From Microbotryomycetes sp. JL201 (lineage: Eukaryota > Basidiomycota > Microbotryomycetes), in the NCBI GenBank assembly GCA_033819885.1, contig JAQYUZ010000008.1, forward strand, positions 467,096 through 531,095: 64,000 bases of DNA, in the 5' to 3' direction. The stretch's first letter is position 1; each line of letters starts with the position of its first letter. The notes below the pieces were generated by a model. That model was not told where the DNA came from. It saw nothing but the letters and a program-made list of their open reading frames with translations, and ran no database searches. Of the stretch, positions 41,276 to 64,000 are shown one piece after another. The position numbers and the translations under genes are program-made.

Positions 41276-42821
41276 ATGGCGGGTTTCAACCTTGATCACT
41301 CGGTGGCGGCAGACGGGGCTCGAGTGAGGATAACTTTGGCCTCACCTGCACCACGTCATTCCCAGTCGTGCCCTGTAGCAACTCTGACAATGTCGAACGC
41401 GCCGTGCCCCAGCAGCAGCGACACTGTCCAAGAAATTGGTCCGCAGAAAATCTTGGTGCTTCAGATGGGCAAATACAAGACGTCTGGCTTGGCTGGTGAG
41501 CACTCGTGGTTGTCTGGCGCAGGGGCCCGTGCGCACAAGAACTCTTCAAAATACATCTGACTATGCGTGCAGCAGTTTCAAAAGTTGCCAACAATGTTTC
41601 CGACCCGCTTTCGGAGCTATCTGTGCCCAGTAGTCTCGATAGCAAGCTGGACGAGGGCTTTGAGAATGAGCTCGGCGACGATTTCAACGGGAACAGCGGT
41701 GACGACGAGAGCTACAGGACTGAAACATCATCAGGACTTAGCGAACGCGAGTCGGACAATGATGCTTGTGATTCTCGCGGCAGAAAGGCTCAGCGCGTCA
41801 ACGCCACGAACCACACGGTTTTTATTGGCGAATCGGATCCATTGGAAAAGAACTTGGAGACGGACATTCTCGCGTTGCTCTCTCAGGTCAGTCTCATTCG
41901 GTGTCTGGGCATGGGGCCGCCCGAGAGCTCAAGTGACCGGACCAGGACAAGCCGCTTGCGTCACTCGACTCGAGTTCACTTTCATTCCAAAATCGCCGCC
42001 AAGCCATGGCGTACGTGTGGGCTTACGCTGCGCAAAACAAGTTTATCTTGTACCGCCGTGGTGGCAGCTTTGTACCTTCCAAAGCCCACTACTTTTGCTC
42101 CATGTCCCTGGCTGTAAACGCCAAACGACATTGCAGTCGTTCCTGCAACTACAAACTCGTTGTTCTACAAGTCTCTGGCGGATTATGGAAGGTGAAAGTC
42201 CTCGATCCGTCCCACACGCACAAGCTTGATGCAACAGCTTATCAGCTTTTGGTCGAAAAAGCTTTGGACAGCCGTCGGCGCCGCAAGGGTTATGAAAGGC
42301 TGACGGTATCAAAATCAGCCCTCGACAAGAGCTCAAGCGCGACCGTTGTCGGCAGCCACTCGCCTTTTGCGCAGCCGCGCAAGCGTCCAAGTTTTACGAT
42401 TGCGCCACAGCCTTTGCCATCGGACCCACCCCGCCCTTCTGACTTGGAAGCCCAAGAGTGGCCGCTCAAAAAGCAGAAGCGATCAAGCAGCCTTGGACCA
42501 TCTCTGCCTGTCCCTCACGACCAACTTTTGATCTCTGCAGCTAGCGACTCGGTCTCGGTCCCGATTTTGTCCAGTGTCCTTGCTTCAAAAGCTCCACACC
42601 TCTCTCGATTGGCTCCAACGCTCAAGCAACAAGGTGTCGACACCATCAGTGCTTTGGTGGACCTGGCGCACATGAGTCGGGAAACACAAACCGAGTTTTT
42701 GAAAGCTGTCGCAAGCAGGATGACCAAGGCGAGCATTGGTGTCAGCTCGGGTGCCACCATGACTCTTATCGACCGTCACCTTTTGCTCGAGCTATTGTCA
42801 CTCCTTCGCGGTCTTGCCTAA
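41276..42821 (+). CDS. FAR1-like (WRKY-GCM1) zinc-finger protein, paralog A
   Basis: Predicted 469 residues from exons 41276-41495, 41573-41886 and 41946-42821 (GT-AG, in frame). Residues about 190-270 form a FAR1-like DNA-binding finger: AYVWAYAAQNKFILYRRGG, a first Cys in YFCSM, CSRSCNYKLVVL, a GLWKVKV strand and the SHTH pair, giving the Cys-Cys-His-x-His pattern of Mutator-transposase/FAR1/FLYWCH-type fingers. A basic, Pro-rich linker follows. The last 95 residues are helical and conserved with two other genes here: SRLAPTLKQQGVDTISALVD, then MTLIDRHLLLELLSLL. No transposase DDE domain is seen. Probably a nuclear DNA-binding protein; domestication from a transposon is possible but not shown. 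Confidence 0.75.
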
Positions 42822-43187
42822 CCAGAGACGTTTGATTTGATTTCGTTTTGCTTTTGACGAGATCGTTGTGGCATGTATAGCGTGCGCTTGCAATCATGAG
42901 TCGCGTCTAGCGAACCTTGTGTCACAAGCTGTCGCCGGAAGAACGCAGATTCGCTCGGCGAGCGAGGCGCAAGAAAAGTTGAGCGAGTTGTAACTGCTCT
43001 CGAGCATTTGGTTTGTCGTACTAGAACGGCATGCTTGTTGAGGCAACTTGGTGCTCGTCACCCGTCTGGCACTACTATCAAGTGCTTGATTTGTCGCGAA
43101 AAGTGGAGCACCGCTCGCCGAGTCACGTGCGCCGCGGTGCTTTTGTTTTCTGTTTGTTGCCGCCGTCGTCGTGCATGCTCGGTCGTG
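42822..43187. promoter_or_regulatory. Intergenic region between paralogs A and B
   Basis: Spacer of 366 bases between two tandem paralogs. No terminal repeat or target-site duplication that would mark a transposon was noticed by eye. Confidence 0.4.
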
Positions 43188-44866
43188 ATGATGAACGAAT
43201 CACAGTGCAAGTCTGTACAGGCGAATGAGCATGCCAGTGAGCCATTGCTGCCATTGTGCCCCGCGCCGGTTGTCATGCCAAATCAAGCAATGCGTCTACA
43301 CGCGGGAGAAGACACACTGTACCAGATGTCTGTTGGTGCTCGCTTCGAGTCACTGGACGCTTTCAAACTAACCTTGCACCGTGCTACGCGTGAGTTTCGC
43401 CGCCCGCGAGGCCCGAGCGCGCGCACTTTCGACAGCGTCTCGCCTGCAGGCCACGCTGACATCGACTTGTCTCGATGGCTGCACAGTCACAGACGGTGTC
43501 AAGTACTGCGTCAAACGTTCGACCGACGCTCTGATCGAGCTAGGCTGCAATTGGCACGGCGACCCGACCGTTGCTACAAACGCAAAATGTCCTGCACGAG
43601 TTGGTTGCACACACGTCGACGGATCGTCAACAGTCGTCGTTACCGTCAGTGAAATGAGCGCCAGTTGTCATGACCATCCGGTGACGGACACAGCAGCCAA
43701 GCTGCGCAAGCGCAAACTGTGCGAGAGCGACATCAAGACGATTTTAACCCGAGCCGAGCGTGGTCACAGTCGTGGAAGCAAGCAAGCTCGTCTGGACGAC
43801 CGTGATCGTCCAAAATCCCGCTCTGCGGATGACGACGACGAGGTGGCTGCGCAGCAAAGTACTTTGTGCCCGCCTGTTGACCGTGCAGACGTCAAATCTG
43901 CGTTTCGTGTCGGCGCCGAGCAGGACAGCGACATGGCCACGAAAGAGCAGCTGGCCGAGGCGTACCCAAAGCAAAGCATGCTTCAGGATGAGATACGTGC
44001 CTGGCTCGACTCGGTGAACCCCTTTCGTTCGTGCAAAGTCGTCGCTTCGCTGACAGATTTCGCTCTCCAAGAACAACAATCTCGCCCGACCCGATTCCTG
44101 CACGCTTTCATTCGTGTCTTCACAGGAAATTACGGCTTATCTGCACGCATACGCCGCTCAAAACAGCTTTGTCTTGTACAGACGCGGCGGTCTCAACATG
44201 CAGTCGACGTTCGAACGAGCTTGGTTTTTTTGTCTCGCGTCAACGCGCCACTACCAGCAAAAGTTTAGCATCAAGCCGTGCTCGTACAAAATCAAGATTG
44301 AAAAGCGTCTTGATGGGACGTGGAAGGTCTCATCCGGCGTATGGATGCATTCGCACGCGCTCGACCGGGCGACGTTTGCTGATTCGCTCAACTGCTACGA
44401 TGGAGGCAGCGCCCGTGGCATTTTCCCAGATGCACTCTGGCCGCAACGTGAAAGCGTTGAACGCGGAGACAAGACCAGTGAGGACAATAAAACAGGTTCT
44501 GATCCGCCGACCAACGTCTTGTCGCCTCATCTCGACCTGGAGGTTCCAAAGGCTTTGAACGGGGTTGATGAGGTTTTGATGAGGAATGAGCATGTGGAGC
44601 ACAACTTTGCATCTCGTCTTGGCTCGTTGCTGAGCCACAAAGCAGCAATACCTCGTCTTGCCGAGCTTGCGCCAGTTCTCCTCGCTCACGGCGTGTCCTC
44701 CATGTCTGCTTTTGTCGACCTGATTCTCATGACCCAACCGGCTAGATTCGAATTTATCAAGACTGTCACGAGCAAGACCACAAACTCGACTGTGAAAATG
44801 ACGTTGATCGACAGACACCTCTTGCTCAATGTTTTGGCGGCGTTTGCTGACGACAAGGGGGGATAG
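43188..44866 (+). CDS. Double FAR1-like zinc-finger protein, paralog B
   Basis: Predicted 512 residues from exons 43188-43389, 43487-44013 and 44057-44866. Two FAR1-like fingers are visible. The first (about residues 45-125) reads GARFESLDAFKLTLHRAT joined by splicing to DGVKYCVKRS, then AKCPARVGC, VVVTV and the ligand pair CHDHP. The second (about 255-335) reads ITAYLHAYAAQNSFVLYRRG, WFFCLAST, KPCSYKIKI, GTWKVSSGV and MHSH. The C-terminal domain RLAELAPVLLAHGVSSMSAF ... MTLIDRHLLLNVLAAF matches paralogs A and D. All junctions keep frame. The basic stretch KLRKRKLC may be a nuclear signal. Tandem with paralog A in the same orientation, so local duplication is likely, followed by strong divergence. 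Confidence 0.77.
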
Positions 44867-45443
44867 TTGCGCTCGAGTTGATCTTTCTGTGCACTTGATT
44901 GCTTGTCAATGGATGGGTCCTTTTCCAGATGAACTTTTACTCCATCCTGGCTTGTACGCTACACAGGCTTTTGGCCAAGACAATATGTCTCGCAGAAGAT
45001 ACAACGGTTGAATAGAGTTCGTCTTGAGCTATCTGGATATCAAGCAAAGATGATGGCGGACGTCCAGATCGACCCGTGCACGAGCGTCGACTCGGAATGT
45101 CAAGACATTGCGCCTGATTTTCGACTGTAAATCATGCTTGGAAAATCACGCGCAAAAGTCTGACTGTGCCAATCTGACCGCTGTCGCAGTGACAATGTGC
45201 GCAGAGCAAGAAGAGAGGCATTGCTGTCACACTCCTCGTCCTTGTAGGCAAATGAGCGCCGAGTGTCGATACCGAAGCTCGTTTGCCAACTCGATACGCA
45301 AATACCCGTACTGTAAAGCTCGGCCCGGAATGAGATCAATACAGCGTCCGTCAAACTTGTCGGGCGAGCAAATGTCGCCGGTGGCGAGATGGCTATCTGG
45401 AATCGACCGTTCGGCATTGCAACAACGCTTTTCCGAGATACAA
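44867..45443. other. Convergent intergenic region
   Basis: Holds the 3' ends of paralog B and QCR7. Short frames on both strands; nothing recognised. Confidence 0.45.
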
Positions 45444-45953
45444 TCAAGCCTTCTTGACAGAGTCCCATTCTGCTCGCTCCTTTGCCTCTGCCTCGATCTC
45501 TTGAACGATCGGCTTCAAGTATCGAACGTCCTTGTGGCGGGCGGAAATGTCAGTAAACGGGACGGCGCAACATGATTGCGTGAATCCCGAGCGTACCTCT
45601 GAAGCAGGCACCCACTCGTCCTTGGGCAGTTCCTTGTGTGCGACGGCGCACATGGACGCAGTGCGCAGACGGAAAGCGCGATCATACGAGTCTCGCTCAG
45701 ACAAGCGGGTCAGCGCCTGTCGATAGAGGCCATGTCAGCCGGTCTCGAGTTACTCGGTAAACGCGCGGGCGCCAAGCGCGAGACGCACCTTTTGAACGGT
45801 CTGGTTCTCCTCAATCAGGATATCGTCGTACTTTAAGCCGTGCTTGCGGTAGCCTGCGAGTGACGCATATCGGTCTGCGAGCGGCTTGAGGAAGCTGTAC
45901 AAGCCGCGCGAGTTCTTGACGGCGTTGGCGAATGACGGGCCAAGAACAGACAT
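45444..45953 (-). CDS. QCR7: Cytochrome bc1 complex subunit 7
   Basis: Matrix-side subunit of respiratory complex III (UQCRB family), 123 residues from exons 45953-45789, 45716-45597 and 45530-45444. The sequence MSVLGPSFANAVKNSRGLYS, KPLADRYASLAGYRKHGLKY, DDILIEENQTVQKALTRLSE, RDSYDRAFRLRTASMCAVAH and KELPKDEWVPASEDVRYLKP matches the family along its full length, including the conserved DDL/DDI and RLP/KELPKDEW elements. No cleavable presequence, as usual. Confidence 0.94.
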
Positions 45954-46422
45954 GCTGTCGTGCGCGCCCATGGGAAGCACAGTCAGTCATACGATCATGC
46001 AAGCACAGTCGTGAGAGTCTTTGGCCTCGTCGACGCCAGGCGTGCGTGCGACTGTGCGTGTGTTGCGCTTGTCGGCGTCGGCCGCCGTCGCCACGCTCGA
46101 CGTGCAGTGCGACAGACACGGTCGCAGGGACAGACGTCGCGTCGCAAAAATGTTTCTGGTCGAGGCCAAGGTGGCTACTTACGTGTGCGCGTGCGTCAGA
46201 GGGCGTCAAAGGCCAACCTGCGACCGCTTCCGATTGGCTCACGGATAGGAGGCGCGCCCGCGTTCATGGTCATTTCAACCAGATATAGTGCACAATGTTT
46301 GACGATGACAAGGAGCTTGTTGACGCTACTAACACGATCACCAGCCGGGACCTTGTTCACAGAGAGCACAACAGGAATTGATTGCAATAATAGTAAAGCG
46401 ATCGTACGACATGACCGCAGCA
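45954..46422. promoter_or_regulatory. QCR7 upstream region
   Basis: About 470 bases holding the QCR7 promoter and the 3' end of the next minus-strand gene. Nothing else seen. Confidence 0.4.
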
Positions 46423-49206
46423 TTACCGCTCACCGCGCAACCACGTCGCCTCGAACTCGGCAAACGAGGCCCTTCTATCCGGCGCTACAGGCTTGACCGA
46501 GGGCGCCACTTTGACGGGCGACTGGCTCTGCGCTTTGCTGCGGATGCGAGAGAGCAATGACGGTTTGAGCGGAGGCACGGCATTCGACATGTGCAGGGTT
46601 TTCACTTTCGTCGTCGTAGTCGCAGTCGCGGCAACGCCTGAATCGGATTCAACCTCGGCAGGAGCAGGAGGAGGCGCGGGCGCAGATGCAGACTGCGGTG
46701 ATGTTGAGACGACGGACTGGAGCGATTCGGAACTACCATCGGCCGACTTGAGGGAATCGCCCGACCTGCTCGCGAGCGTCACCTTGAGCGATTTGGGTTC
46801 CGGCTTTTTGAGCTCGTCACCTTGAGCTGCAAAAGTCGTCTTGCTCGTGTCGGCGACTGCTTTGGTGCCGAGTGCGACTTCACTCGCGATCGTCTTGCCT
46901 ACGCTGTCCTCGGTCGACTGCTTCGATTTGGGCTTTGGCACCTCGACGCCGATGAACGTCTTGTCTTGACGCGTGGGCATCTCACGCATGCTCTTGCCGA
47001 CAGGTGGAGCGCCAGCTTCGGGCGCCACTGTCATTGCCATAGAGGCATCGTCGACCTCGGATTTGTCGGCCGTCGCAGCCGTCTCTGTCGGCGCAGGTGG
47101 GCCTTGCACGCTGTTGGCACCGCTGTACAGAGCTTGAAGGCGTGCCGTGTATTGATTTTGATCAGGCACAAAGTGGCCATCGTCACTGTCTTCGACCTCT
47201 GGGCTGGGTCTCGCCGAAGATGACCGAGTCTCGACGCCCGTCATCTGCACGTCTTTGTTGTCGACGCTCGTCTGACGATCAACTCTTGTGCCATTGACTT
47301 GCGAATCACTGACGGCTGGCTCGACCGGCTGGATTGGAACATCTTCGACGGGCAGTTTTGGAGAAATCTTGCCTCCTTTGACCAATTCTGTCCACACTTG
47401 TTCGCCTCGATCGCGAACGGCAGCCTTCAGTCGCATCCTCGGCCACACGCCGACTTGTTCTGCCTCGAGCATGTCAATCATGGCCAGACGTAGCTCAATA
47501 GATTCTGCAAAGAATGATTGAGGCGAGACGGCCAACGTCGGCAGGGCGAGAACTTTTGCAAGCGGTACGAAATCCGAATGCAGCGCAGCGAGGTACGTTT
47601 GCCAATCGGCGAGAGACGATTGCTTCGGCAAGACTGACAATTGCGGAGGCGGGTTTGGTGCGGGCAGGATTGCAGGTCGATACACGACGACAGTGTGACC
47701 AGGGGCAAGGTCGCCAAACGGCAGCGCGCCCGAGTGGGCAGGAGCACGCAAGCCCGTCTGAGCGTGGCCGGACTGTCCAGACAGTGCGGGCGCGATTTTC
47801 TGATCGAGCAATAAACTGCGCGTGAACGGCGGCGCGAGAATGCGCGACTCGACTTTTTTGCCCGACATGCGACCGCCGCTCAAAGCTCCGCTAGTCGCTG
47901 GATCGCGAGTCGCAGGCGATTGGTACACCTCGTCAGCCGCACCGGCTTCAATGTCCATCGACGATACAACGTTTTGCTTGCTCGCCGACGGCGCAGCTTG
48001 CTGAGGAGCCTTTCTCGCTGGCAAGACTCTGGTCGGCTGTTTCGGCATCTTTTGCTTCTTTTTGGGCGGCATTGCAGTGTCAATGCCGCCCAACGATGGA
48101 TGCAGAGATGATCCTAGCTCGTCTTTAGGTGGATGTACACAATTGTAGTTGGAACGGGCGAGCTTTGCATCGCTCGGCACTTAAAACGATTTCGAGTCAG
48201 CACGCTTCTACACGAGTCGCAAAACCTGGCTCACCGTCTGAAGGAGGTGGGTTCTGCGGGCGCAAAACCCAACCGCCTTCCTTTGCTTTGGCCAGCTTGA
48301 GGATAAAAGGGCAGCCGGCGCGACGATACGCGCAAGTGATGTGCATGTATGCGGATTGAGCTTTTGTCGTGCGGTCATCAGTCACGACGACGACCATTCC
48401 CAAGTTGCTGCAATGATTGCAAGTTGTTGTGTCAGAGAGTGTGTATTGACGCTCGAGACGGACACGACTGACGAGGCGATTTCAAAGACCAAGGACGTGA
48501 ACCCCTTTGGCGTCGAAAATACAATGTTTTCGAGTTTCGACCACTCTTGGTAGTTGGAAAGAGGAGGTTGGACGATGGGTGCAGGTTTGCGGTCCATTGT
48601 CTCGGCTGGAGGTACAGAGCCAGACAGTGAGCGAGCGAGCGAACCTTGGCCCGTGTAGTCGCTCTCTTTTGCCGGACTTGAAGGCACCGAGTGAATCGGA
48701 CCGTGCTGATACGGAGAGCCGAGAAATGGAGGGTCGCCATCGCTCTCGTTTGCCTCGTCTTCGTCCGACGAAGGTTCGCGGTACGTTGGTCGGTCGGGGT
48801 TTCCAAACAAGCCAGAATGACGGCGCGACGACTTGCGGACGGGCTCGTCAGTCTTGGGTCTCGCCGTGCGTCGTTTTCGTTTCTTGGGCGGCGCGGCAGT
48901 GGCGGCGGCAGCGTGCACGAACGTGGGCACAGGAGCGACGCCCGATGACAGGGCCACTGATTCCATCGGTAGAGCCAACTGCTGGTGCTGTTGCTGCCAT
49001 GGGTTGACTGACGCGTACGAGGCTGTTGTCGACGTCACAGTCGGACCTTGAGCCGGCACAGACGGGGCAGCAGCAAAGCTGGTTGAAGCGGCTGGTGCAG
49101 GCGACCTGTGGTCGCTGTCCGACTCTTCCGAGCCTGACATGAGTACTGTTCCGTTGACGTGTTCTGGTACGTTTGTCAAGGCGTTCCATGTAGGTTGCGA
49201 GGCCAT
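46423..49206 (-). CDS. Large FAR1-like zinc-finger protein, paralog C
   Basis: Three exons (49206-48473, 48407-48235, 48179-46423) join what look like three separate frames into one of 887 residues; donors GTCAGT and GTGAGC and acceptors TGCAG and TTTAAG keep phase. The joined region forms a FAR1-like finger at about residues 230-325: IVFSTPKGFTSLVFEIASSN, MVVVVTDDR, YMHITCAYRRAGCPFILKLA, GGWVLRP and the terminal NYNCVHP, where Cys-x-His takes the place of His-x-His. Upstream lies a Ser/Pro-rich region with a basic patch (PPKKRKRRTARPK), a likely nuclear signal. Downstream, LADWQTYLAALHSDFVPLAK and MIDMLEAEQVGVWPRMRLKA resemble the C-terminal domain of the other paralogs weakly. The remainder is disordered. 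Function unknown. Confidence 0.7.
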
Positions 49207-49924
49207 TTCTCTCGTGAGCGGGCGAGGGCGCGGGCTGGTGCTCGAAAGCGCGAATCAGACCGACAGCAGCGGGACAAGCGTCGGAGCGAGTACAAACAAG
49301 CGATCAAACGTAGCCGAGCCTGCCGCCAACGTTGAGTGATGACGTTGTAAGTTGCAAAGATAGAGTCTCGGCGGTGTGGGCAGCGTGCGATGACGGCAAG
49401 CGACGAAACCCTGAAGCAGTGAATCCAAGGGTGGGAAGGGGGTTTTGACGAAATGAACGAGAGGCCGGGCTCGTCGACGAGCTCGTGCGAGGCCGCGTCG
49501 AGAGTGCAGAAGCAAGCTCGGAGCGAGAGCGCACACGCCGCCTGAAAACACGTTCGTCCGTAAGCAACGCGGTCCTCGCAAGACCACGCAGAGCGCTAGA
49601 TGCATTTGATAGACAGAACAAGCAGGTCTCTACGTCAGATTTCGCGATCTGCATTGCTGTGCGTCCACCGAGCAGCCGAGCCGCGTGGCTCGGGCGTCGC
49701 CCACCAATTTTCATTCGTGTGATGCTGTACAGATCATCCGACAGGCCGACGGACTATTCTCAGAAGGCTTGCAATCACAAGCTCGTCAATGGCTGTTGTC
49801 TTGTCATCGCCAGACATTTTCCTGGTACGGAAGCTTGCGTGGGGATAAGCATTGCAAGACGCATTTACAGATCCGAGCATTCCCTTTTGTGATCGACTAC
49901 AGCAAAGACGCGCCAAGTGCAAAT
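49207..49924. other. Intergenic region
   Basis: About 720 bases between paralog C and NDK1, both on the minus strand. It holds the promoter of paralog C. A minus-strand frame at 49304-49714 is Arg/Ser-rich and unsupported. Confidence 0.45.
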
Positions 49925-50669
49925 TTACTCGTAGATCCAGACCTGCGAGCAAGTCTCGGTTCAGTGACGGTGCAACGAGATGTGCGCAAGAAACGCCAAC
50001 TGACCTCGTTGGCGAGCTTGTACTGGTTCAAACCCTCGGGGAACCACAGAGCAATCTCCTTTTGGCCGTTCTCGACAGAGTCCGACTGTCGAAGCATGAT
50101 CAGTGCGTGTCTTGGCAGGGTAGACTCGCAACTTACGCCGTGGCAGACGTTGCGTCCGACGTCAATGGCAAAGTCACCACGGACTGATAGGACGGAGAAA
50201 TCAGTTGCACATTCACAACATGTGACTCCGAAGCAACGCACTGGTGCCAGGGGCCGAGGCCAAGGGGTTGGTGGCGCCGAGGAGGGTGCGACCAGTCTTG
50301 ACGGCGTCCTTACCCTCCCAGACCATGGCGACGACGGGGCCTGCGACAGGACGACATGTTCAAACGGTTGCCACGCGCTAGAAAGCCAAACACGCACCCG
50401 AAGCCATGTACTTGACGAGGCCAGGGAAAAAGGCCTTTGACTTCAAGTCCTCGTAGTGCTTCTCGAGGTGCTCGACCGTGGGCGAGACCATCTTCAAAGC
50501 GACCAGCTTGTAGCCGCGGCGCTCGAAGCGGGCAATGATCTCTCCGACCAAGCCGCGGTTGACACCGTCGGGCCTGCACAGACGAGCGAGTGCCCGTCAG
50601 CAAGAGCGCGAGCGTTGGCCGGACACTGCAACATACTTGATCATGATGTAGGTCTGCTCCTGGTTGGCC
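49925..50669 (-). CDS. YNK1: Nucleoside diphosphate kinase, first exon unresolved
   Basis: Transfers the terminal phosphate between nucleoside tri- and diphosphates through a phospho-His. Exons read [103 protein letters not shown] (active-site His in NVCHGSDS) and [18 protein letters not shown]; a last exon adds VWIYE and the stop at 49925, the standard ending. Exon 1 with the ATG must lie upstream of the TAG acceptor at 50670-50671 and end in phase 2; I could not fix it. All other junctions are GT-AG. Confidence 0.92.
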
Positions 50670-51093
50670 CTATTGTCATCGAAATGAAAGAATTGCATAG
50701 AGCGTCAGAGCCACATCCAATGCATGCATGCGCACGTTTTGCTGTTTTTCCTCGGCGTGCCCGCGTGTACGCTGTATCGCCAGGTAGGGCCAGCACTAGC
50801 GAGCTGACGCTCATTCATGCACCTTGGTAGCTGCTACGTGTTGCCCAAATGGCATCAAGGGCAGGGCTCTTTCGCTCGTGCGAACGCGACAGCCACGTTC
50901 AGGCCGCTCGAGTGTGCAATCGTGCACACCCTTGGACCATGGCGCCAGGTCATAGTGGAGGTGTAGCTCGTGTACGCGACTCACATGTCTACTGCAATGG
51001 GGGTGAAAGTAGAACCGCAAACGCCAACGCGCGCATGCAAACAATTTCCGCATACACGCAGGTCATCTTTGAAATACAGCTGATATAAGCAAC
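50670..51093. promoter_or_regulatory. NDK1 upstream region
   Basis: Must contain the missing first exon, a 5' intron and the promoter of NDK1. No other feature recognised. Confidence 0.4.
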
Positions 51094-53539
51094 CTAATAG
51101 TGTCCTCTGTATGGCTGCTGAGAATACATTCTCGGTGCTCCAACATCGCCTGCCCACGCCTGTTGCTGACCACCTCCGCCGTCGCTGCTGTAGCCTCTCG
51201 GAACCTGAGGCCGCGCATAGTTGTTGCCATAGTAATGCTGAGCACCGGCGGGAGGGTTCTGTCGATGCTGTGGAGGTCGGGCGTCGTACTGTGGCGCCGG
51301 CGAGTGCTGTCTGGGCAAACTGTACGCGTCTTGCGCTTGACCATATTCGTGACGAGGACTCGCGTGCGGGTCGTAGTACTCTTTGCGCATGCTCGACGCC
51401 AGAGACGTTTCCGACGGTTGTGGCGCCAGTCTGCGTTGACCCGCAGCAGTAGCGGCGGCAGCAGCAGTGCCACCTTGAGGCTTGAGCGGGTATGCGTTCG
51501 GGTCGCCAACTTGCTTGTATGACGCCTTTTGGCCGGACCTGCGACACCGAACGATACACGTGCACACTGAAACGATCACAAAAAGCGCACCGGCAGCCGC
51601 GCCGATGCCGATTCCCACTTTCTGTGAACCACCGCGTCAGCGCTCGCCAAGACCGAGGGCCGCCGAACGAGAGACGCACCGCTGCCGTCGGCAGTTTGCC
51701 CCACCACGTGGTGGCAGCGTGCGTGGCAAGATCTCCGGAACCCGTGCCAGACTTGACGCCTTTCGTGTCGTTCTCCTTGATGATCACTGCAGGCAAGGGT
51801 CAGCTTGCGCACGTGTGGCGAACGAGGTCACTCACTGTTGACACCGGTCGAGTATTGACTGAGCCGGGACATGTCAGCTCGCATCGCAAAAAAGCGTTCA
51901 CGCAAACTCACCTATTGATGATGGTTGATGCGTCGCTGCCGGACACTTGCGGCTGACCCGCCGAAGAGTTTGCTGCGGAAGCGGGAATTAGACGCGCGTC
52001 CGAACAGAGCGTCCGCAACTGAAACGCACCGCCCCAAAGGTACGAGCTGATCGTGTCGGCTCGCTCCGTCAGCCAGTGCCGCTCGTCGTCACCGCGTCTG
52101 ACGAGCCTGCTCGTCGAATTCGAACCGGACGTCGAGTTGGTCGGACTCGTCGTCGTGTTGCCGGCCTGGAACGTCAAGTCCGAGTTGTCGTAGCACTGGA
52201 TAGAAACCCATTGCACGTACGACGCAAAGTAGCCTTGCGACTTGTAATCAGGCGCGTTCCAATCAATCATGCCGCCAGCCCAATCGATTGTACCTTGCGA
52301 CGTGCCCTCGACGCCTGCAGGCCACACTGACATTTGAATGCGAGATGGCGTTTGCGGAAACTTGGTCAGGCTCCCATTCTTCGTATTGGACGCCTGCAAG
52401 GTGCGAACAACGTTGCCGTCGATGGTCCACTCGAGTTTATTCGGCGTCCAGTCGAGTCCGCTATGGAGCCAGTCACCGGTCGGCTTGTCACTCCAAAGGA
52501 CGCGGGTAACGAGCTTACTACACATGGTACTGCGTGTCGCGATCTTCCGCTTCGTGTTGTCCGCCATGTGTATAGCCGTCGACGTCTCCCATCCAATACT
52601 ATGTGAAACTCGGTCAACAGTTCAAGCAAGTGACCTTTTGTGACCCACATAGTTGCTCTGCAAAGCGCTCGCACCGGTAAGCTCGAATCGCCACGCGGTA
52701 TACACAAGTGAAAGACTCGCCTGCACCTCGTTCGTGTTGTTGCTCGTCCACTCCCAATCGATCTCGTCTTTGGATCCACTCATTGTGATGAAAGCCGTGA
52801 CGACACCCGGTGCGCCCGTCGTCTTGATGCTCGCTTGAATTTGACCGTACAGCAGCGTGCGCGTCGTCGATAACCTCGTACCTTTGCCTGCCTGCGTCAT
52901 CAACAAGACGAGTTCGTTGTTTTGAACGATTGATGTGTCGGTATTGTCTTGGTGGTCAAGTGTCCAATCGAATGCGCTGGCGTCGCCGTTGAATGCAGTC
53001 AGATTCATCTGGATGCGACTCGTGTCGGCAAACGTGTACTGCGAGATGTTTGTTAATGGTTTGGCACAAAGCAAGTCGCGACAGATTTTGCGCACGTTTG
53101 CATTCGTGCAGGCGGGCATTGGCGCGCAATATTCGTGCGAGAGTGAGCCGATAGGATTGCATCCTCCGAGGCAGCCTACGCCTGCTGAGCACGTGCCAAA
53201 TTCAGTGCAGCACCTGTGATCTCCATGGGTCAGCTCGTTTGAGCGCGCTCGGGGTCTGTGCTCGACTGACGGAGCTGTGTCTGGACATTGGTAGCCCTAC
53301 GGTTACGCAGTCAGCACGTGCAGGACAAGTACGCGACACATTTGCTGACCCATCCACACGCTTGATCTGCCACATTCGTGCCTCCTTGGGCAGGCACTTG
53401 GGCACGAGCACCGCCCACGGCGACGGCGCACGCGACAGCGGCCACGAGCCACGACGAGCTGGCAAAGGCAGGCGATAAGCAATGTCAGTGCAATTGCACG
53501 AGCCGCTTCGTGCATCGCGCCGAAAACTGACGGGTGCAT
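51094..53539 (-). CDS. CRH1: CRH-type GH16 cell-wall transglycosylase with membrane anchor
   Basis: Secreted enzyme that cross-links chitin to beta-glucan in the cell wall. Start at 53539: MHPSSWLVAAVACAVAVGGA (signal peptide) forms across a GTCAGT intron. A Cys-rich module follows (ACGWGYQCPD, CCTEFGTCSAGVGCLGGCNP), similar to the chitin-binding-like part of Crh proteins. The GH16 core has the catalytic motif DEIDWEW with both Glu, then NTNEVQ, and the later block DWLHSGLDWTPNKLEWTIDG and RIQMSVWPAG, WAGGMIDW. The tail has a Ser/Thr-rich region, then one transmembrane helix (VGIGIGAAAGALFVIVSVCT) and a Gln/Pro/Tyr-rich cytosolic part ending RGHY, so it is anchored by a helix and not by GPI. 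Confidence 0.92.
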
Positions 53540-53814
53540 TCCGCTCGTGCGCGAGACCAGACGCGTCGTCGCACGCGTCAAATTACTGCTGGTGAACAAG
53601 TATCGAACGCGTCAGACGCGCGCGCGCGCTATGACTCGAGCGAGATGATGAATAGAGGGAGGTGAGGCGGATTTGCGGACTATTCTCAGAGGCGGCGGAC
53701 GGACACCGCCCTCGCCCGCACGCATGGCCCCGACTGCAGCCTGATTCACACATTCTATAAGCAGTGCGCTCATGCTATTGCGATCATGAAATGATTGGCC
53801 CGAGCATACACCAC

Positions 53815-56800
53815 TCAGAACAGTGACCTGCACAACGGACACGACGAGCCATGACTTGTTGAGAACCACTGCGGAACTACTCGTTAGCAAACCATGTCTT
53901 TCCGAACAGCCAGAACACTCGCCTTGTACAGACACGCAGCATGGAACCGGTTCGAGCATGTTTTGCACTGCTTTTTGGGTAGTGACCGGTCGACCAGGTG
54001 CACAGTCGAGTAGCAAATCGCGCAAGCTTCAACGCCCTCGAAATGCAAGACGACATTGCGTTTAAACACGTTGAGCGCGTCGGCAATCAGACCGTTCTGG
54101 ACAGCACCGAGGTTTGAATGAGCGGTTTGACCACGGTTGTGCCGTGCTCACCTGATTCGTGATGACTTGGTTGATGCCAAGCAGCCATGCGCGCCACTGG
54201 GCGTCGTTGACGCCAACTTTGCGAACATCCTTGACTTGAACTTGCTGCAACGGAAACTCGGCCGGCAACTGAATTCCAATCTCCATGCTCTCTTCGTCGA
54301 CAACAAACACGGCTTTGACCTCGTTGGCTCCAGCGGCAACCTTGACCGTAAAGTCGTCGTTGTCGCGCAACGCTTGACCAGCAGGATCGTTCGGGTCGCG
54401 CAAGTGGGCAAGCTCGGCAGAAATGAGCACGGGCGAAAAATGTCGCGCCGTAAACGTGGCAAAGGCCATGGACAGTTGTCGGTTCTTGCACGCCTCCCAC
54501 CATTGGCGAATGAGCGATGGGATTGCTTGCAGTGACCGAAAGTATACATGGCTCGCAAACACGGGCATCGTAGTGTGCGTTAGCTCGTCCAAGCCTGCGT
54601 GCGTGTCGTCAGCGTCCTAACCTAGAACATGCAAAAGCGCACTCACACTCGTGATGAAATTCGTCAACGGCCCACGGCGAAATATCGACGGGCCTCGTTC
54701 GGTCGCTCAAATTGACAAGCGTAAAGATTGTCGGCAGAAGCGACGTGGCGACAATATCAGCGCGACGAAGCTGGTCGTTATAAGCGGCTTTAATTCTCGG
54801 CGACTGTCGATCAAATGAGGTCACGGACTGTTGCGCTCGGACGATGGCTTTACTCACGGCCATTTCGAAAAAGCGAAAGGTGACGAGCCAAGCAAACAGA
54901 TAAGTGGTGGTCTGGCATGCGCCGAGGTCAGCAGATTGACAATCGAAAGCCAAATCGACTGACAGTCGAGTACGTCTCCACGGCTTGCGCGTCCGCGTCC
55001 ACCTTGTCCGAGATCAAGGCGACCAGCTCGACCGGCAGGGCAAGTTGCAGCGTATCGTCCGTGTCGAGCTCGGCTTCGACGACCAAGTCTGCGATGTGTG
55101 TTTCGACAATCTTGACAAGAAGGTCGAACGCCGTTTTCTGAACTCGAAAGGACGAGTCTTGAAGCAGGAGCGCGAGCTGTCGGGCAACCCTTAACCAGCA
55201 TCCAAGCTCGAGAATATTGCGCCGACTTACGGGCAAAAAAGAGTCCATAGTCAGCATCTTGCTGGGTAGCGTCTTGATCAAACGAGACATGACGTCGAGG
55301 ACAGCCAGCCGAGGCGCGTTGCGCTGCCGCGAATCTGCCGAGAGCGTCAATGAGCATTGGCAGTTGTCACGCTGGCTGGAGAGCGCACCTGGCCTCGCCA
55401 CAAACAGGTCTCGAACCAGCTGCAAGCCCTTTTCAAAGCGCGGCTTGATTGTCGTTCTCAAATCGCTGTTGCTTGCCGCCAGGTCGACGAGCGTTGCCAA
55501 AAGCTGGCACGAGTAATATAACGCCGGGATCGTCGACGCCTCGTCCCATGAAGCGGCCTGTGCGTAGACGGTCAATTATGCGCATTAATTTGAAGCGCCT
55601 ACCCACTTGTATGTTGAGTTCGAGAACGTCAAACATGAGGTCCCAGTGCGAGCCGCTCATGTCTTGAATGATTGGGGCCAGGTGGACAAATAGCTCTGCG
55701 AGCCTGCTGTACAACTCTTCGTCGAGGTCGTCATCGCTCGAGATCCAGGCCAAGAGTGTCTTGTATAGAAATATGCATCGCTGCTGGGGCAAAAAGATGA
55801 TTGGAGCGTCGCGTGGTGGTGCAGACGCTAGTAGCAGTTGAAGCAGCGGCAGACCCTTGCTAGTTGCCTCGCGGGCCGAAACACCGGCCACGTTGGCCGC
55901 GAGCTCGTTCTGATACCGTTCGAGACGAGGCGATTCGACGAGCACAGGCTTGATCGCATGCAGTGCAGCACAAGCTAGCTCTGGAGCTGAACGATCAAGT
56001 CAGCATGATTGCCCGTTACCCGCTTTTGACGCGCACCATTGCTCAGCGATTGAGTCCATGCCAGCCATCGCTCGCCGTCCTGCACGCCGCTGTCTGTGTA
56101 TCGCAGCATTGATCCAAGAACTGTCTTGAACGCCCGCTGGGAGTACACGGCGCCGGGCGCCCGAGCCGAGTCAACCAGCTGACAGAGGATTGCAATGATG
56201 CTGTCTGATGGTTCCGTGCGGTCCCTCGATCGAACGCTTGTGACAGCCCTGAGGTGCCAATCGGCAGGAGCCGTGTTGCCGAATGCTGACAAGATGTACG
56301 CCGACAATCCCTCTGCGGCGCTTGCGAGACGCTCGAGCACGTCGCCTCTGACCGAGGCGCCAAAGAAACCGTTCGTGCCGGAACTGAGGGCGAGCTCGTC
56401 GCGAGCGGCATGGGCACCAAGCAATAGGTACGGCAGCCACCGAGTTTGTGACCGCGCCCAATTGTGGTCCTCGCGCGCGGCAATCTCGAGCAGAGCAATC
56501 AATACGCGAGCAAAAGGCGGCAGACCAGCCGAGTCGGTTTCGTCGGCCGGACGAGGCACGAAACCGAGCGTCTGCGACACGAGAGGCTGTAGCACGGCCA
56601 AAGCGGGGGATGGAGACGATGACGCCGGCAACATTGATTCGACAGCGTCGACGGCTGGCAAGAGACTTGTAAGCTTTGCGACGGGTAGATCGGTCGACAA
56701 TATTGCTGCTGCATTGACAATGTCGACCGGCCTGAGCAGAGAGATGATCAGTTGGCACCGAATGATACGGCGTGGCAACTGGCTCACGAAGGCACGCAGT

Positions 56801-59679
56801 GAGGGTCGACGAGCAACGCGTTCAGTCTGGCCACGACGCTCGCGGCGACTTGGGCGTCTGCGGTTTTGCAAATTTGGTCCCAGGCGTGTCTGGCTCCGAA
56901 GATGGCTTCGTCTGGTACGTCAATTACACCGATGCCGAGTTCGGGCAACATGACGGCGGTTTCAAACACGCTGACGACTACGTCTGCCGATAATAGTCGA
57001 GCGTTGTCGCCGACGCTGGTGTAACGCGCCAGGATTAGGCAAGGCGCCGCAAGGAGATACGGATTAATGGCCAGACCGCTCAGTATGCGTATTGTTAGGA
57101 CGGGCAGACGGTGCGCCACGCTCGTAATGATGCTGTCGACCGTTTCGTCCTTGATGAATGGCTCTGGACGACCCCCTCGTCAGCCCTGGCAGTGAAATAG
57201 AACACGCCTACTCACCAGGCTGAACGACCAGATCCATTAGGACGTCAAGCTCCACGGCTGAAAACGACGTCGAGTCGTCCGACACGACGCAACCCGCGAT
57301 TTCAGTCATGCGATCATCCAGGCCAGCCGACGGCAGGTCTGGCGGTATGCTTCCTGTTTTTACGGCGCGTACAAGTTCCTTGATTACAGCCATTGGCAGT
57401 TTGGGCGCGAACAAGCTCGACCACACGGACGCCCGACTGGAACTGTCGGCTTCGCCGAGCAAGTCCAAGAGGAGCGGAAAAGCCGCATCGCGGATAGCTG
57501 GAGACTGAAGCATGGCCGACACATGATCTCGTGCCAAGGATTCCAAGGCCTGCGCGCGCAAAGTCAGTCAATGTCCCGTTGCAAGATGAAGCACGCACAG
57601 TCTGAGCCTCTGATGAGGGACCGCAGACACGCCGAGTTGCTCGAAGAAATTCTAATCTGCTCGCAACTCGATCGCCTGCTCCGTCTTGCATGAGCGCGTT
57701 GGCGACGGCTCTCACGCTGTTGGCGGCGAGTTGCTGTCCTCGTTGAACCACCGCGTCGGAGCCATTTTCTACAAACGCCACTAGAGCGACAGACAGCGCC
57801 TGTAGTGCTTCATCGTGACTCAGCGCCTGGCCACTTCTTTCCTCGACCACCGTCCAAACCGACTCGAGGTCTCGGAGTTGTGCGAGAAAGTTGGCTTGAC
57901 TGACAGCGGCAGCCCGCGTTGCTATGCTTGCATGCTGCCTCTGACTGTCCCCTGCAAGTCCCAAGAATGTCGAGTATAATCGACCGAACCAGTTCTGAGC
58001 GAGCCGAGCCGCCTCTGCACCGCCGTCGTCTGCCTTTGCTAGCGCCGTCAACTCGTACAAGAGGCACTCGAGGAAAGCGTTGACGAAATCAAGGACAGCC
58101 GAGCTCGATGCGCTCGGGGTGATCCCAGAAAGGGCGCGTCCGCCCCAAGCCGCCCAAAACGATTCGAACAAGAACGAAAATGCGTCAAATGTAGGGGGCA
58201 GCACGGCGGGTGGGATAGTAGAGAGAAGTAAGAGGATCGTTGGATACAGGTGCGGGTGCCCGGAGCACGCCAGGGTGAGGTGCTGATAAAGCCTTTGTAG
58301 CGCGCCGCTTGAAGGAGCACGCAGCGAAGAAACGGACGCGCTCTCTTCGCCTGCGTCTGCATTATCATCCCCATTTTCTGTGGAGGCCTTGCTAGGCGGT
58401 GCAGTGCGCAATTCCTCAAAAGTCCAAGCTTGCGGGTATCCTGGCGTATTTCGGGTTAGCTGTGTCTTTTGAACGGGTAGGAGGATAAGCGCACTTTGCA
58501 AAAATCGTATGATCCCAGGCCATCCTTCATCTTCAGCCCAGCAATGCTCGAGCACTCGTGTCGCAATAGTTTGCAAACCATCGTTTCGCTCAACCAAGTG
58601 CTCTTCTGTCCGCGCCGTCGCCGCTCCCAACAGCTCGTACATGGCTCGACGCAGGTGCACAGGCTGCTCGGCTTTGACGAGGTCCCACAGTTCGTCGCTG
58701 ACAAAGAGCTCGAGCGATTCTTCCGGTATTGGCAGCGGGCTCGGCAGAGTCGACAACAGGTATGCGATGGCCAAGACGCTCTGGGATTTGACGAGTGCAT
58801 GCTCGTCCGTTCCAGTGTCAGAGCTGGACAGCGATTGAGAGAATATGTTGCCTGCTGCAAAGTCGAGTATACTTGCAGCGTGCTCGGCGAGGTTGATCGA
58901 AAGCTCTGCGGCGTCGATTGGCGTAGTGACGGCTTGCCAGCTGCGCTTGGCGATGGCTCGCACAGCCTTGTCGCTATCAAACCCACTGCAGCACCAAGAT
59001 CCGACGTAATCATGCTGCTCTGTCCACATGGGCGCGAGCAGCGCCTGGCGAGTCTGCGCGAGCAGCGACGATGGCCTGTGTTGCGACGGTTTGGCGACGA
59101 GCATCGAATGGAGTGAATGTGCTTGGTGTCTCACTCGCCTCTCCGGATGCAGCGCGAGCCGCGGGAAGTGAGATGCCTGAACGGGAGATCAGCTGGTTGT
59201 GGGCGCCAAACTCGGCTCTGAAGCCTCACCCAAACTTGCATGGCCTCGACGACCTGCTCGACTTTTGTCTCTATTTTCCAGTCGTCTCCGCCTCGAGCTG
59301 CCAGCTCTTGGCTGATGACGTCCCTGATCCATCCTTCCAAACCGTCGATGCCCTTGACAAGTGTCGCCTCGTCCTTTTTGTGTAATCTTCGCAAGATCAC
59401 GACGAGTTCTGCATCTACAGCCGCTCCTCCATGAAGGTAGACGTCTACAGGGTCTGGCTTGCCTTTGGGGGGCGGAGGCGGCGGCACGTACCGCTTCACT
59501 TTGGGTTCAAACCGGTTACGCTTTTCTTTCTTTTTGGACCCCGTCCGTTGTTGCTGTTGCGCTGGCTTATTGGCGTCGTGACCGTCTTCGTCTGCACCGT
59601 CACCTTGCTGCTGCTGCTGTTTCTTGCGCTCATGCTTCTTGCGGGTCGCCGACGACGCACTCGACTTGCTCTTGGCCAT
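53815..59679 (-). CDS. LTN1: Listerin E3 ubiquitin ligase of ribosome quality control
   Basis: Large E3 (roughly 1700 residues) that ubiquitinates nascent chains on stalled 60S subunits. The N-terminal part (MAKSKSSASSATRKKHERKK, then RYVPPPPPPKGKPDPVDVYL and VVILRRLHKKDEATLVKGID) is the typical listerin opening. A very long HEAT/ARM-like middle region follows over many exons, for example ALLAPMWTEQHDYVGSWCCS and AVRAIAKRSWQAVTTPIDAA. Near the C-terminus are an RWD-like region (FSPVLISAELAHLRDPNDPA) and the RING: CAICYSTVHLVDRSLPKKQC, CSNRFHAACLYKWFSTSHGS and SCPLCRSLF. The last intron (53922-53869) has a GCGAGT donor; only that GC-AG junction yields the family's LYKWF. The ATG at 59679 is the one that opens the conserved start; frame upstream is not conserved. 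Confidence 0.93.
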
Positions 59680-59942
59680 CTCCTGGTACAAGAGCTGGGC
59701 TCGACTTGACTGCAAGTGCGTGCAACAGGGCGAGCGGCGGAGGATGAAACGACCGATGACGAAATGCGCAGAAGCAAACAAGTCATGCAAATGGCTATAG
59801 TACAAGCTCGACGAGGTCTCTTCTACGGTGAACAAATGTCTCAAACATTTTATCCTTTCAATCACGATAATGCCGGCGGGCGACGGCCGGCCAGACCTGA
59901 TTGATTGTCATTCAAGCGGCTACTTGGTCAGGCGGCTGCGGG

Positions 59943-61115
59943 TCAGTGTGTCTGTTACAAGTGATCAGCTTGGGCGCGGGCAATCCTGTGAGGAAAGGGA
60001 CTGACTGGCTTGATTTTAAAGTGCAGACTAATCAATGAAAAGATGAAAATCTGCGAGGACAAGGCGGACGTCAGACAGAGTTCCAAGGCACGGATCAAAA
60101 CGTACCTTGAGATCCTGCACGAGATAGTAGAATACTCGCAGTCCATCCGGGTCGTCAGACTGTTGCACGTCGACGAGCGAGCCAATTTTGGCCGTCTACA
60201 GCAGCGGCAGCAAAGGAAAATCGCATCAGCATATCGCCACATTGAACAAAATACAGACTTTGCTGACCTCGAACGAGACGTGGTAGTCACCGAGTCGTAC
60301 TTCCATTTCTTGCCTGCCCACAATGTTTCGTTCGGGCCATTGCTTGTCGTCCTCCCTGTTCGGCCAAGATGTGAGGAAAGAGCCACAGCAGCATGGCATG
60401 AGTGAACTGACTTGACGATCTCGGACTCGTGAACAATTCTCTTGATTTCGGAAACGGTCAGCGGCGAGAGGTGGGCTGAACAAGCAACGAGGTCAACCAG
60501 CGTTCCGTGCGTAGCGATTAGTGAGCGATGCGTACTCTCTTTGCGGATGAGAGAATCATTGCGGTAGCTGCGTTTATTGTCGGTAGTCAGCGCCTGCGCG
60601 TAGACTATCCGCTTGTGATGAGGAGCCACGATCACACTCTGAGCAAAAAAGTTGTCTCAAAGTCGGGTGTGTCGTGTCGTGTTTGTGCCGTGCGGGCGTG
60701 GGCATGCGCAAGCGCGGTCGCAAACAGACGTACTTGGAGTTGTTGGCGTATCGTAGCCGACCGTGAGAGATTTCAAATTCGAGGAACTATGTAAAAGTTC
60801 AATAGCAAATTGAGGTCGGGTAGGGTTAGCGTTGCGTTCCAGAACGGTCTCGAAGCCACGACAACGGTCTCAAAGCCACGACGTGGCGATTGTGGTGCTG
60901 TAATTGTGCACGTAGCAAACGCAGATCGACTGACCTCGTGACCGTGTTGTCCAGAGTGTCCGACGCTGTGCATGGGCAGAACAGCGATCAGCGCGCGCCC
61001 GCCCCAAGCTACCCAGAACGGTTCGAGCCCGCGCCTGGGCCATGATGGCTCACTAGTATCGCAGGTAGAACGGATCCTCTTCAAGAGCGCGCGGCGCGAT
61101 CGCTTGCTCGGTCAT
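59943..61115 (-). CDS. MAGO: Mago nashi, exon junction complex core subunit
   Basis: Binds Y14 in the exon junction complex deposited on spliced mRNA. Many short exons give, in order, [140 protein letters not shown] and [15 protein letters not shown]. This is collinear with Mago over its full length of about 145-150 residues. The final intron probably makes the protein end PTH at 59943; reading through would add 14 residues and end at 59955. It fits an organism with this many introns to keep an EJC. Start codon 89 bases below paralog D. Confidence 0.94.
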
Positions 61116-61203
61116 GGTGAGCGGAGGAGCGGAGGGAGGGAAGGAGATTTTGGAGTGAAAGCGCCATAGTATTTACAACAGTGTGAGGCCTCCAACATCT
61201 CGT

Positions 61204-62254
61204 TCATGCTACCTGTACGCCAGCCTGTTTGCCCAACTTTTTCAAAATGGACAAAAACAACATTCGGTCAACCGTCGTGAAAGGCGGTGTTTGCTTGGCG
61301 TACTCGACCTCGATTGCGCTCTCCAAAAACATTTTGGACACGTTTGGACCCATGTAGAGCAAGTGCGCGAAAGCGGCCTTTGTTGCTACACCATGCTTGA
61401 GCAGCAATGGCGCAAACGACTCGAGGCGAGGATTGAGGGAGCGCAGGATCACCGGTAGACGGTCAGCAAACGATTTCTTGCCCAATTGTTGTCCCGATGC
61501 CGGCGGCCGCAGTCGGGTTGGAATTTTCTCGCGATGCGATAAACTCGAGTGCGACGACTCATTGCGCGAAGGGTGCGACGAATCGTTGCGCTGACAGCCT
61601 GCCTGGCCCTGCGACTCGTTCTCGATTGGCTGATTGTGTGCCCACGAGCCCTCTGTCGCCGTCACATGCCATTTACCGCATGAGTCGGCCAAGATGGTAA
61701 TCTTGCATTTGCACAGCGGTGCCGGTGCGATCCTACTGTGTTGCCTCGAGCAGACATAGTCGGCCCGTGTGCTCGTCGCAAGACCGAGCCTGAACATTTT
61801 GAACGAGTGTTGGCGTGCATACGCGAGGAGGTAAATGACAATGTCGGTCGCCGAGTCGAACCTCCCTGACACCTTGTCAGGTCTCGTGAGGTGAGATTTC
61901 TGCCACACGCAACCGCTTAGTAGTAACCGTAAGCGCAAACAGGCAGGAGCTCATCTCTGCAGCCAGTTTCTCAACCTGGCTCTTTATCGAGAATGGATTA
62001 GGGTAGACACTACGCCACGAGTGTAAAGTCGGTCCTCTTGCGCGCTTTTTTGGTGTGGCCGATTCAGAATCCGAGTCTGCTTTGGATCGCTTGCCGCCGA
62101 CTATAGATCTCTCTGCTGAGCCTGATTCTGGTTCCAGCTCGTTGCGGGCGTCCGAGCACGAGAGCGTATCGCGGCTAGCATTGACCTCGCGTTGCAAGGT
62201 GGAGGTTGTCGAATCGCGTCGTTTGAGGGCGCGCAGATCCGCCGCGTCGCGCAC
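61204..62254 (-). CDS. FAR1-like zinc-finger protein, paralog D, 5' end unresolved
   Basis: Two clear exons joined by a GTTGAG...GGCAG intron of 80 nt (about 61905-61984) with a TACTAA-like branch site. The upstream part is Ser/Arg/Lys-rich with a basic patch (TPKKRARGPT). The finger reads GRFDSATDIVIYLLAYARQH, MFRLG, DYVCSRQH, LCKCKITIL, KWHVTAT and SWAHNQ; the last ligand pair is His-x-Gln, so one zinc ligand may be lost or shifted. The C-terminal domain RLESFAPLLLKHGVATKAAF ... TTVDRMLFLSILKKLG matches paralogs A and B and ends at 61204. The frame is open to 62254 but has no ATG there; an acceptor (ATTCTAG) at the border implies a further 5' exon, perhaps in 62290-62531. Confidence 0.68.
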
Positions 62255-63924
62255 GACCTAGAATATTGCTTGTGCGGCGAGCCATTGAACCAATGAGAAT
62301 ACATGCCGATCCATCATTGTGAAGCGTGTGCGGTCGTCTGATTCCGAATGATGCACTGGTAGCGATATCACGCCACTGTTTGCGCGGCGCGTTGCCTCGT
62401 TTGACAAAATTCGCCAAGTCGAGAAGCCGACTGCTCGTACGCGAGGAATCGGCTGTTCTCATGCTATATCCGCTGACCACATAGCTTGGAAGAGTGACAA
62501 AAGCTTGATCGTGTATGTCATAGCCGTGCATCCTGCAGCATCTGCTTCGCGTTGGCCGGAGCGATGGGCAACTTGAGCGCTGCCTTTGAGCCTGTGCGTG
62601 CAGGCAGCCCTGCTGTGTACTCCTCTGACCTTTGATGCGACCGGGAAATCAAGATGGGTTCTGCATGCCAACGACTCGAGCGAGGCGATTTCAGGTCTTG
62701 GCAATGTTCGACGCGCGAAAGCTCGGGCCTCTTTCGCTCTCGCGTCTCGGCCGGCTGCAACCGACGCCCGCGGATGATTCGGCGCGCGCTCGACCAGGAC
62801 ACTTAGCGCACAAGGCACGCTGTGTCAGACAATATCACGTTCATGAGCGAAACTTGGCGGCGGCGGCGGCGACGATGATGGCGCGCGCTCTGCCGACCCC
62901 GATTGCGACTATCTCCAGCCTACGCCAACGCCTGGCTCAGCGGCAGCATATTTGAGTGTTACAAGCTTTTGATCGCGTGCGTGTGCTTTGACGCGCGGCA
63001 GCCTCTTCATGCGCCAACGTACGCGGCTGACCGATGCCGCCTCAGCCACATCGTCAAGGCCATCGCGAAGCTCGGCGACGCCTCGAAATAGACTTGCGTT
63101 GACTGATGCGATGGTTCGCCGTGCCATCAAGCATATGACGAGGGAACCCTTGACGTCGCCTGCCCATCGCGCGCCACTTAGGCAGTCCCGCGCCAGTGAC
63201 GTACACGCCCAGAGGCGATGCGACCACCATCGCGCGACAGCACAATCATTGAGTATGACTGTGAACGTGCTACTTGCTACTGAAATGCGCGTTGGCATCG
63301 GTGGCGTTTCTCGAACTATCGCGCTTCGTGACAAAGCAGACGCAACCGTGATCAGCACTAGTCTGTTGCAATTCACTGCACCATCAGTTGTCTCCGTGTG
63401 CTTGCGCGCGCGCATATGGACAGTGACTGTGTCCGCGCGCAGCGTTGAACGCGAAGTCTGTGAGCTCGAGCCCCTCGGCGTCGCACAAAATGGCCACGAT
63501 GTCGCTATGCGCTAGTGCTAGCGCCAGGACAGGCATGCGGCGGGCTAGATGTGACGCATATGAGTGCGAATCGTAACCGGCAGAGCACATACAGGTCACT
63601 CTAGGGTGGGCAAGTGACCGCTAGAGGCGCCAACGTCTTTCAAGCTTGCGACCAGTTTGGGACGCCCGCAGCCATGCTCTGCGTTGCGTGTGTAAGTATT
63701 CTGACGTGCATCATGCAGGGTGAACCTTCTGCACAAATTATTGTAATGCACAGAGACCAGCATCGACAAGAGCCACAAGGCAAGGCAAGAGGCAACTTTG
63801 AGCTTGAGACAGTGTTAGACACAGCAAGAGTACGATCTAATGGAACGGAACCCTTTCATGCCAAATGCAACTGTGTCAGCTCAGACACCAGAGCAGAGAA
63901 CAGAGCTCAGCAGCCCAGTGGCAA
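62255..63924. other. Subtelomeric stretch without a firm gene
   Basis: About 1.7 kb between paralog D and the telomere. The left 280 bases may contain the missing 5' exon of paralog D (minus-strand frame 62531 to about 62300). The rest has overlapping Arg/Ala-rich frames on both strands without motifs. No helicase fragment, tandem array or transposon end was recognised. Confidence 0.55.
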
Positions 63925-64000
63925 GGGTTAGGGTTAGGGTTAGGGTTAGGGTTAGGGTTAGGGTTAGGGTTAGGGTTAGGGTTAGGGTTAGGGTTAGGGT
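63925..64000 (+). repeat. Telomere repeats (TTAGGG)n
   Basis: Twelve complete and one partial GGGTTA units without a mismatch, in the orientation expected of the G-rich strand running 5' to 3' toward a right chromosome end. The window ends inside the array. Confidence 0.98.

Follow-up and report, generated by a model that had tools for sequence, protein, structure and literature searches.

A gene family with a candidate zinc finger and a predicted SAM-like tail near a chromosome end of the basidiomycete Microbotryomycetes sp. JL201

Introduction

Plant FAR1-type proteins derive from the transposases of Mutator-like elements (MULEs); the finger is all that remains in FRF proteins, and it is present twice in some FRS proteins (PMC6000157). 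The spacing of WRKY fingers is quoted as C-X4-5-C-X22-23-H-X-H (PMC2390551). Fungal FAR1 counts are usually low: Table 3 of PMC4469406 gives 0-1 for seven single species, Agaricomycetes average 1, and two rusts have 14 and 4. The SAM domain of the LEAFY protein, whose identity was not predictable from sequence, forms head-to-tail oligomers (PMC4844672). Here, we describe a small gene family in a 64,000-nucleotide stretch of DNA (the window) from the basidiomycete fungus Microbotryomycetes sp. JL201 (assembly GCA_033819885.1, contig JAQYUZ010000008.1, positions 467,096 to 531,095). This window forms the terminal part of contig C78 in a 17.15-Mb genome of 92 contigs, and it closes in a TTAGGG telomere repeat array (63924-64000, forward strand). 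An initial annotation had proposed that four genes in this window, A to D, form a local family of FAR1-like zinc-finger genes with a common C-terminal domain. We observed that A, B and D are related by both a candidate finger and a C-terminal tail, and that the tail is most likely a SAM-like helical bundle, as judged from a structural model.

Results

Sequence comparison relates A, B and D as diverged paralogues

Paralogue A (41276-42821, forward strand) was modelled with exons at 41276-41495, 41573-41886 and 41946-42821, which splice across GT-AG introns of 77 and 59 nucleotides into a single open frame for a predicted protein of 469 residues. Paralogue B (43188-44866, forward strand; modelled exons 43188-43389, 43436-44013 and 44126-44866) also splices across GT-AG introns into an open frame, here for a predicted protein of 506 residues; its first 3' splice site was picked so that the frame stays open. 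Both exon models rest on open frames and GT-AG sites, not on RNA. A and B form a tandem pair on the same strand with 366 nucleotides between them, and both look intact. D lies on the opposite strand. Its finger and tail are encoded by a single exon (61204-61899, reverse strand), an open frame that matches B in genome searches, and a 76-nucleotide intron of phase 0 (61900-61975, reverse strand) lies immediately upstream of the finger. A phase-0 intron directly before the finger is a position common to the models of A, B and D.

The tails of A (42558-42815, forward strand), B (44603-44860, forward strand) and D (61216-61473, reverse strand) are 46% (A/B), 34% (A/D) and 33% (B/D) identical, with 20 invariant columns, which upholds the earlier proposal that these three genes share a C-terminal domain. 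The fingers are 37% (A/B) and 26% (A/D) identical, with 16 invariant columns. In single-sequence genome searches, A and B matched each other in the finger (expectation value, E, 4.3e-13) and in the tail (2.9e-9), B and D matched in the tail (2.7e-5) and in the finger (0.0105), and A and D matched in the finger only (0.0085 with A as the query and 0.0212 with D). The tails of A and D gave no direct mutual match in these searches and were linked only via B. We take these comparisons to indicate that A, B and D are true, diverged paralogues.

A comparison of A with B over 225 codons found 120, 99 and 146 differences at codon positions 1, 2 and 3, respectively, and 52 of the 85 identical residues were encoded by a different codon. 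This pattern fits selection on the protein.

Genome searches with exon 3 of A, exon 3 of B, D and the tail of B listed only the A, B and D loci in the 17.15 Mb, and within the sensitivity of these searches the family is confined to one locus; the search scores only the best candidates, and more distant members could escape it. The genome-wide tail search that the initial annotation had called for has thus been run and returned these three loci, but it did not recover C. Elsewhere, 67 and 28 pattern stretches from viral contigs and 35 from prokaryote genomes were examined for relatives, and none was confirmed.

The tail is predicted to be a SAM-like five-helix bundle

AlphaFold2 modelled the tail alone as five helices with a mean predicted local distance difference test score (pLDDT) of 83.5 and a predicted template modelling score (pTM) of 0.70; the limits of the tail in B follow this model and the Foldseek search, and those in A and D follow profile alignment. 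The alignments behind this model and the model of B exon 3 (see below) contained three sequences each. In a Foldseek search with the tail model, 45 PDB entries matched at E ≤ 10 and none at 0.001. The only one of the 45 with a template modelling (TM) score above 0.5 was 4ude_B, the SAM oligomerisation domain of LEAFY (TM 0.63/0.70), in a full-length superposition of 86 columns with a root-mean-square deviation of 3.7. We read the tail as most likely a SAM-like five-helix bundle. An invariant D and an invariant R sit at the start of helix 5 in the tail model, which we take to be where the end-helix surfaces of SAM domains lie.

Other observations weigh against this assignment. The match to 4ude_B stands seventh in order of E-value and is not significant (E 4.3; probability 0.51; 14% identity), and small helical bundles can resemble one another by chance. 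The tail profile found a single match among PDB sequences, HI0572, that was not significant (E 1.5), and conservation of an acidic mid-loop partner surface does not extend to all three tails. In addition, no SAM-family profile in Pfam matched the tail at E ≤ 10, and a Foldseek search of BFVD returned 122 matches at E ≤ 10, with a best E of 1.6 and no TM above 0.5 among the best 50 of the 122.

The tail had been suggested to be an oligomerisation or partner-binding module. This guess gains support because the five-helix model is confident and its sole PDB look-alike with a TM above 0.5 is a SAM oligomerisation domain, but the underlying Foldseek match falls short of significance. By its likeness in fold to the LEAFY domain, the tail may oligomerise. 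Not all SAM domains polymerise. The tail and the N-terminal SAM domain of LEAFY (4ude; PMC4844672) have in common five helices, as modelled for the tail, and a connection to a DNA-binding domain, putatively so in the fungal proteins; they differ in that the SAM domain is N-terminal in LEAFY whereas the tail is C-terminal here, and the DNA-binding domain is of another kind.

A candidate zinc finger is conserved among the three paralogues

The four ligands C, C, H and H occur in this order in the finger region of A (41982-42251, forward strand) and in the main finger of B (44126-44386, forward strand), both with the spacing C-x15-C-x22-H-x-H. The finger region of D (61609-61863, reverse strand) reads C-x12-C-x24-H-x-Q, with the last ligand replaced by Gln. 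These regions were placed by profile alignment, together with the ligand spacing in A and D and with AlphaFold2 strands in B. The two cysteines and the first histidine are invariant across A, B and D. In the AlphaFold2 model of B exon 3, strands at 17-20, 31-36, 55-60 and 66-72 surround the ligands with moderate confidence (mean pLDDT 55; finger blocks mostly 63-73, one at 44). A W-x-V before the histidines resembles the FAR1 consensus.

We consider the finger most likely to be of the WRKY-GCM1/FAR1 type (PF03101), as the best fit to the model and the ligands, with membership unproven. The likeness lies in the C, C, H-x-H ligand order of A and B and in the strands that flank the ligands in the moderate-confidence model; the differences are that no Pfam match was found at E ≤ 10, that no MULE or SWIM part was recognised and that D ends in Gln. 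Compared with the quoted WRKY pattern (PMC2390551), the x22 of A and B between the second C and H-x-H falls within the range, whereas the first spacing of that pattern is shorter than the x15 of A and B and the x12 of D.

None of the motif, profile and structure searches singled out a known finger family. The loose C-C-H-x-H pattern had 8 matches in the 603 window frames of at least 60 residues, against a mean of 6.0 and a maximum of 16 in shuffled sequence. Because the bare motif is at chance level, the case for the finger rests on its conservation among the paralogues. Pfam returned no family at E ≤ 10 for the whole of A, the whole of B or the parts of C and D searched. Against PDB sequences, the best hit of the finger profile was ribosomal eL43 (E 1.6), which is not significant. 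Foldseek with the combined finger and tail model (mean pLDDT 55) gave 147 matches at E ≤ 10, the best at 2.1, and no WRKY, GCM or FLYWCH protein was among the best 50 of the 147. A genome search with Pfam FAR1 (PF03101) was uninformative, its controls being matched in 0 of 14 genomes. Of the FAR1-type finger that had been annotated, the ligand pattern (C-C-H-x-H in A and B, ending in H-x-Q in D) and the predicted strand order fit, but the profile test failed: the Pfam check of the proteins brought up neither FAR1 nor an assignment to any other family.

The uniformly negative outcome of these known-family tests (Pfam, PDB sequences and Foldseek of the combined model), together with the loss of the last ligand in D, would suit another explanation, in which the middle domain is a separate fungal domain whose cysteines and histidines are there by chance, and the tail associates with another protein and not with itself. 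We regard this as unlikely, given that all three paralogues keep both cysteines and the first histidine unchanged and that the predicted strand order is as the finger fold expects.

B may have a second, N-terminal finger (43546-43677, forward strand; C-x13-C-x26-H-x-H, followed by a basic stretch), which we mention as a hypothesis only. Its comparison with the main finger gave an hhalign P of 0.26, and the pattern is not beyond chance. No Pfam family matched it at E ≤ 0.01, and a PDB sequence search with the N-terminal part of B found nothing significant.

The family carries no recognisable transposase core

As the initial annotation had stated, a transposase core is lacking: Pfam MULE (PF10551) had no match in the genome, with a control matched in 4 of 14 genomes, and Pfam returned no family (E ≤ 10) for A, B or the parts of C and D searched. 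In the plant proteins, a MULE origin of the finger, its survival alone in FRF proteins and its doubling in some FRS proteins are all on record (PMC6000157), and by analogy A, B and D could be remnants of Mutator-like transposases, whose finger, in B perhaps with a second one, would be the old DNA-binding head, with the core lost and the tail added later; such remnants may be functionless now. We give this a low probability. Against it stand the absence of PF10551, the presence of three loci and not of a dispersed repeat, the codon constraint between A and B and a finger that Pfam did not recognise as FAR1. A domesticated transposon-type finger is possible but unproven. FRF proteins resemble the family in having such a finger without a recognised transposase core or SWIM domain; they differ in being plant proteins, and the FRF account drawn on here (PMC6000157) makes no mention of a SAM-like tail.

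D adjoins a subtelomeric repeat

Measured to the start of the telomere array at 63924, A begins 22.6 kb away and B 20.7 kb, and the low end of D is 2.7 kb away; the placement of the whole family within 21 kb of the telomere end was therefore not correct for A. Upstream of the D intron, an open frame (61976-62257, reverse strand) encodes a basic stretch resembling a nuclear localisation signal. From the stop at 62258-62260 to the intron, this frame has no ATG, and a subtelomeric repeat begins at ~62246-62257; the start at 62254 that had been assigned to D is not confirmed. The border of the repeat probably truncates the frame. Because one ligand is lost and the start is missing or elsewhere, D may be decaying.

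Pieces of the repeat (62246-63925, unstranded) that are 74-92% identical recur on 6 of the 11 other contig ends with a telomere cap, and genome-wide the repeat had 20 matches on 19 contigs, its own copy counted. Telomere-capped ends were defined by an exact 30-base search, which found TTAGGG arrays at 12 contig ends. At the 11 others, we searched the outermost 10 kb, and at nine of these a further 10 kb inward (5044 frames in all), with the finger and tail profiles and found no family copy (best E 0.39 for the finger and 2.4 for the tail). Among A, B and D, only D adjoins the repeat.

Inside the repeat, a possible decayed relic of a tail (62258-62540, reverse strand) ends at the border with D. 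Its nine-residue core, FTMMDRHVF (62297-62323, reverse strand), resembles the end of the tail. A frameshift-tolerant score, compared with 40 shuffles each, gave z values of 3.4, 1.6 and 3.9 for three copies, those of the window, L022 and L024, respectively; the score of the window copy was below the shuffle maximum (27.7 against 29.3), and that of L024 was just above it (30.3 against 30.0). Profile E-values were 0.58 and 2.4, and the copies have frame-breaking indels. The relic is suggestive only.

A subtelomeric family that spread by exchange of chromosome ends, of which D and the relic would be the remains and A and B older inner copies, would account for a repeat beside D that recurs on other ends and for the tail-like core in the window and L024. 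It has a rather slim chance of being right: the core scores poorly in L022 and stays close to the shuffle maximum in the window copy and in L024, the relic profile E-values and the indels speak against a preserved tail, and the other ends searched hold no finger or whole tail. The proposed expansion near a chromosome end is weakened accordingly; D does adjoin the repeat, but A and B lie among ordinary genes and the other ends are without copies. The telomere link is weak.

Gene C and the neighbourhood of the family

Gene C (46423-49206, reverse strand) was considered and not accepted as a member. A 363-residue query, assembled with guessed splices, matched only C itself in the genome search, and C was absent from the listings of the searches with the A, B, D and B-tail queries. 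Its finger core of 22 columns gave an hhalign P of 0.037, and its ligand spacing, on a guessed splice, is C-x6-C-x38-C-x-H; a PDB sequence search with this finger found nothing significant. The weaker, internal version of the tail that had been ascribed to C was not borne out (hhalign P = 0.63). A distant relation of its finger to those of A, B and D is possible. What remains of the proposed four-gene family is thus three genes related by finger and tail, with C unproven.

The neighbours of A and B are ordinary genes, with a sodium/hydrogen exchanger before A and QCR7, NDK, GH16, LTN1 and Mago between A/B and D. Elsewhere in the window, Pfam places a frame at 8188-9903 among the fungal protein kinases (PF17667, E 2e-20), in keeping with a fungal genome, and 30256-31785 encodes the N-terminal and central domains of a thiamine-pyrophosphate enzyme. 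PDB searches with this kinase frame and with the frame that contains Mago had no result. Another repeat, 72-74% identical among L024:9711-9988, L029:80-710 and L035:4-350, links the terminal region of contig C69 with two places on contig C25.

Discussion

Our analyses are consistent with A, B and D being paralogues of a family of nuclear DNA-binding proteins. We infer that the finger, a predicted fold of three or four strands with one zinc held by C, C, H and H, would read DNA, and that the SAM-like tail would mediate self-association or pairing among proteins of the family. Association through the tail may then allow several fingers to bind neighbouring DNA sites together, as LEAFY does with its SAM domain. 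That the proteins bind DNA via the finger and associate via the tail is our best explanation, which we hold tentatively and rate at slightly under an even chance. Zinc binding, membership in the SAM fold and a role in the nucleus are likewise inferences.

A bolder version is quite unlikely in our estimate. It would have the family be an independent LEAFY-like design, in which an unrecognised finger is combined with a SAM-like polymerising tail, so that weak fingers act on arrays of sites or on closed chromatin, and in which the family was once partly carried on the subtelomeric repeat.

In the titles and abstract openings that we searched, the combination of a FAR1-type finger and a SAM-like tail was not described; this does not prove that it has never been published. 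Genes of this kind will probably be labelled hypothetical in annotations, because Pfam recognised neither domain (E ≤ 10) in the proteins searched. If our best explanation is true, a fungal finger protein that lacks a transposase core would bring its own oligomerisation module, and the family would offer a testable example of a transposon-type finger turned into a cooperative regulator.

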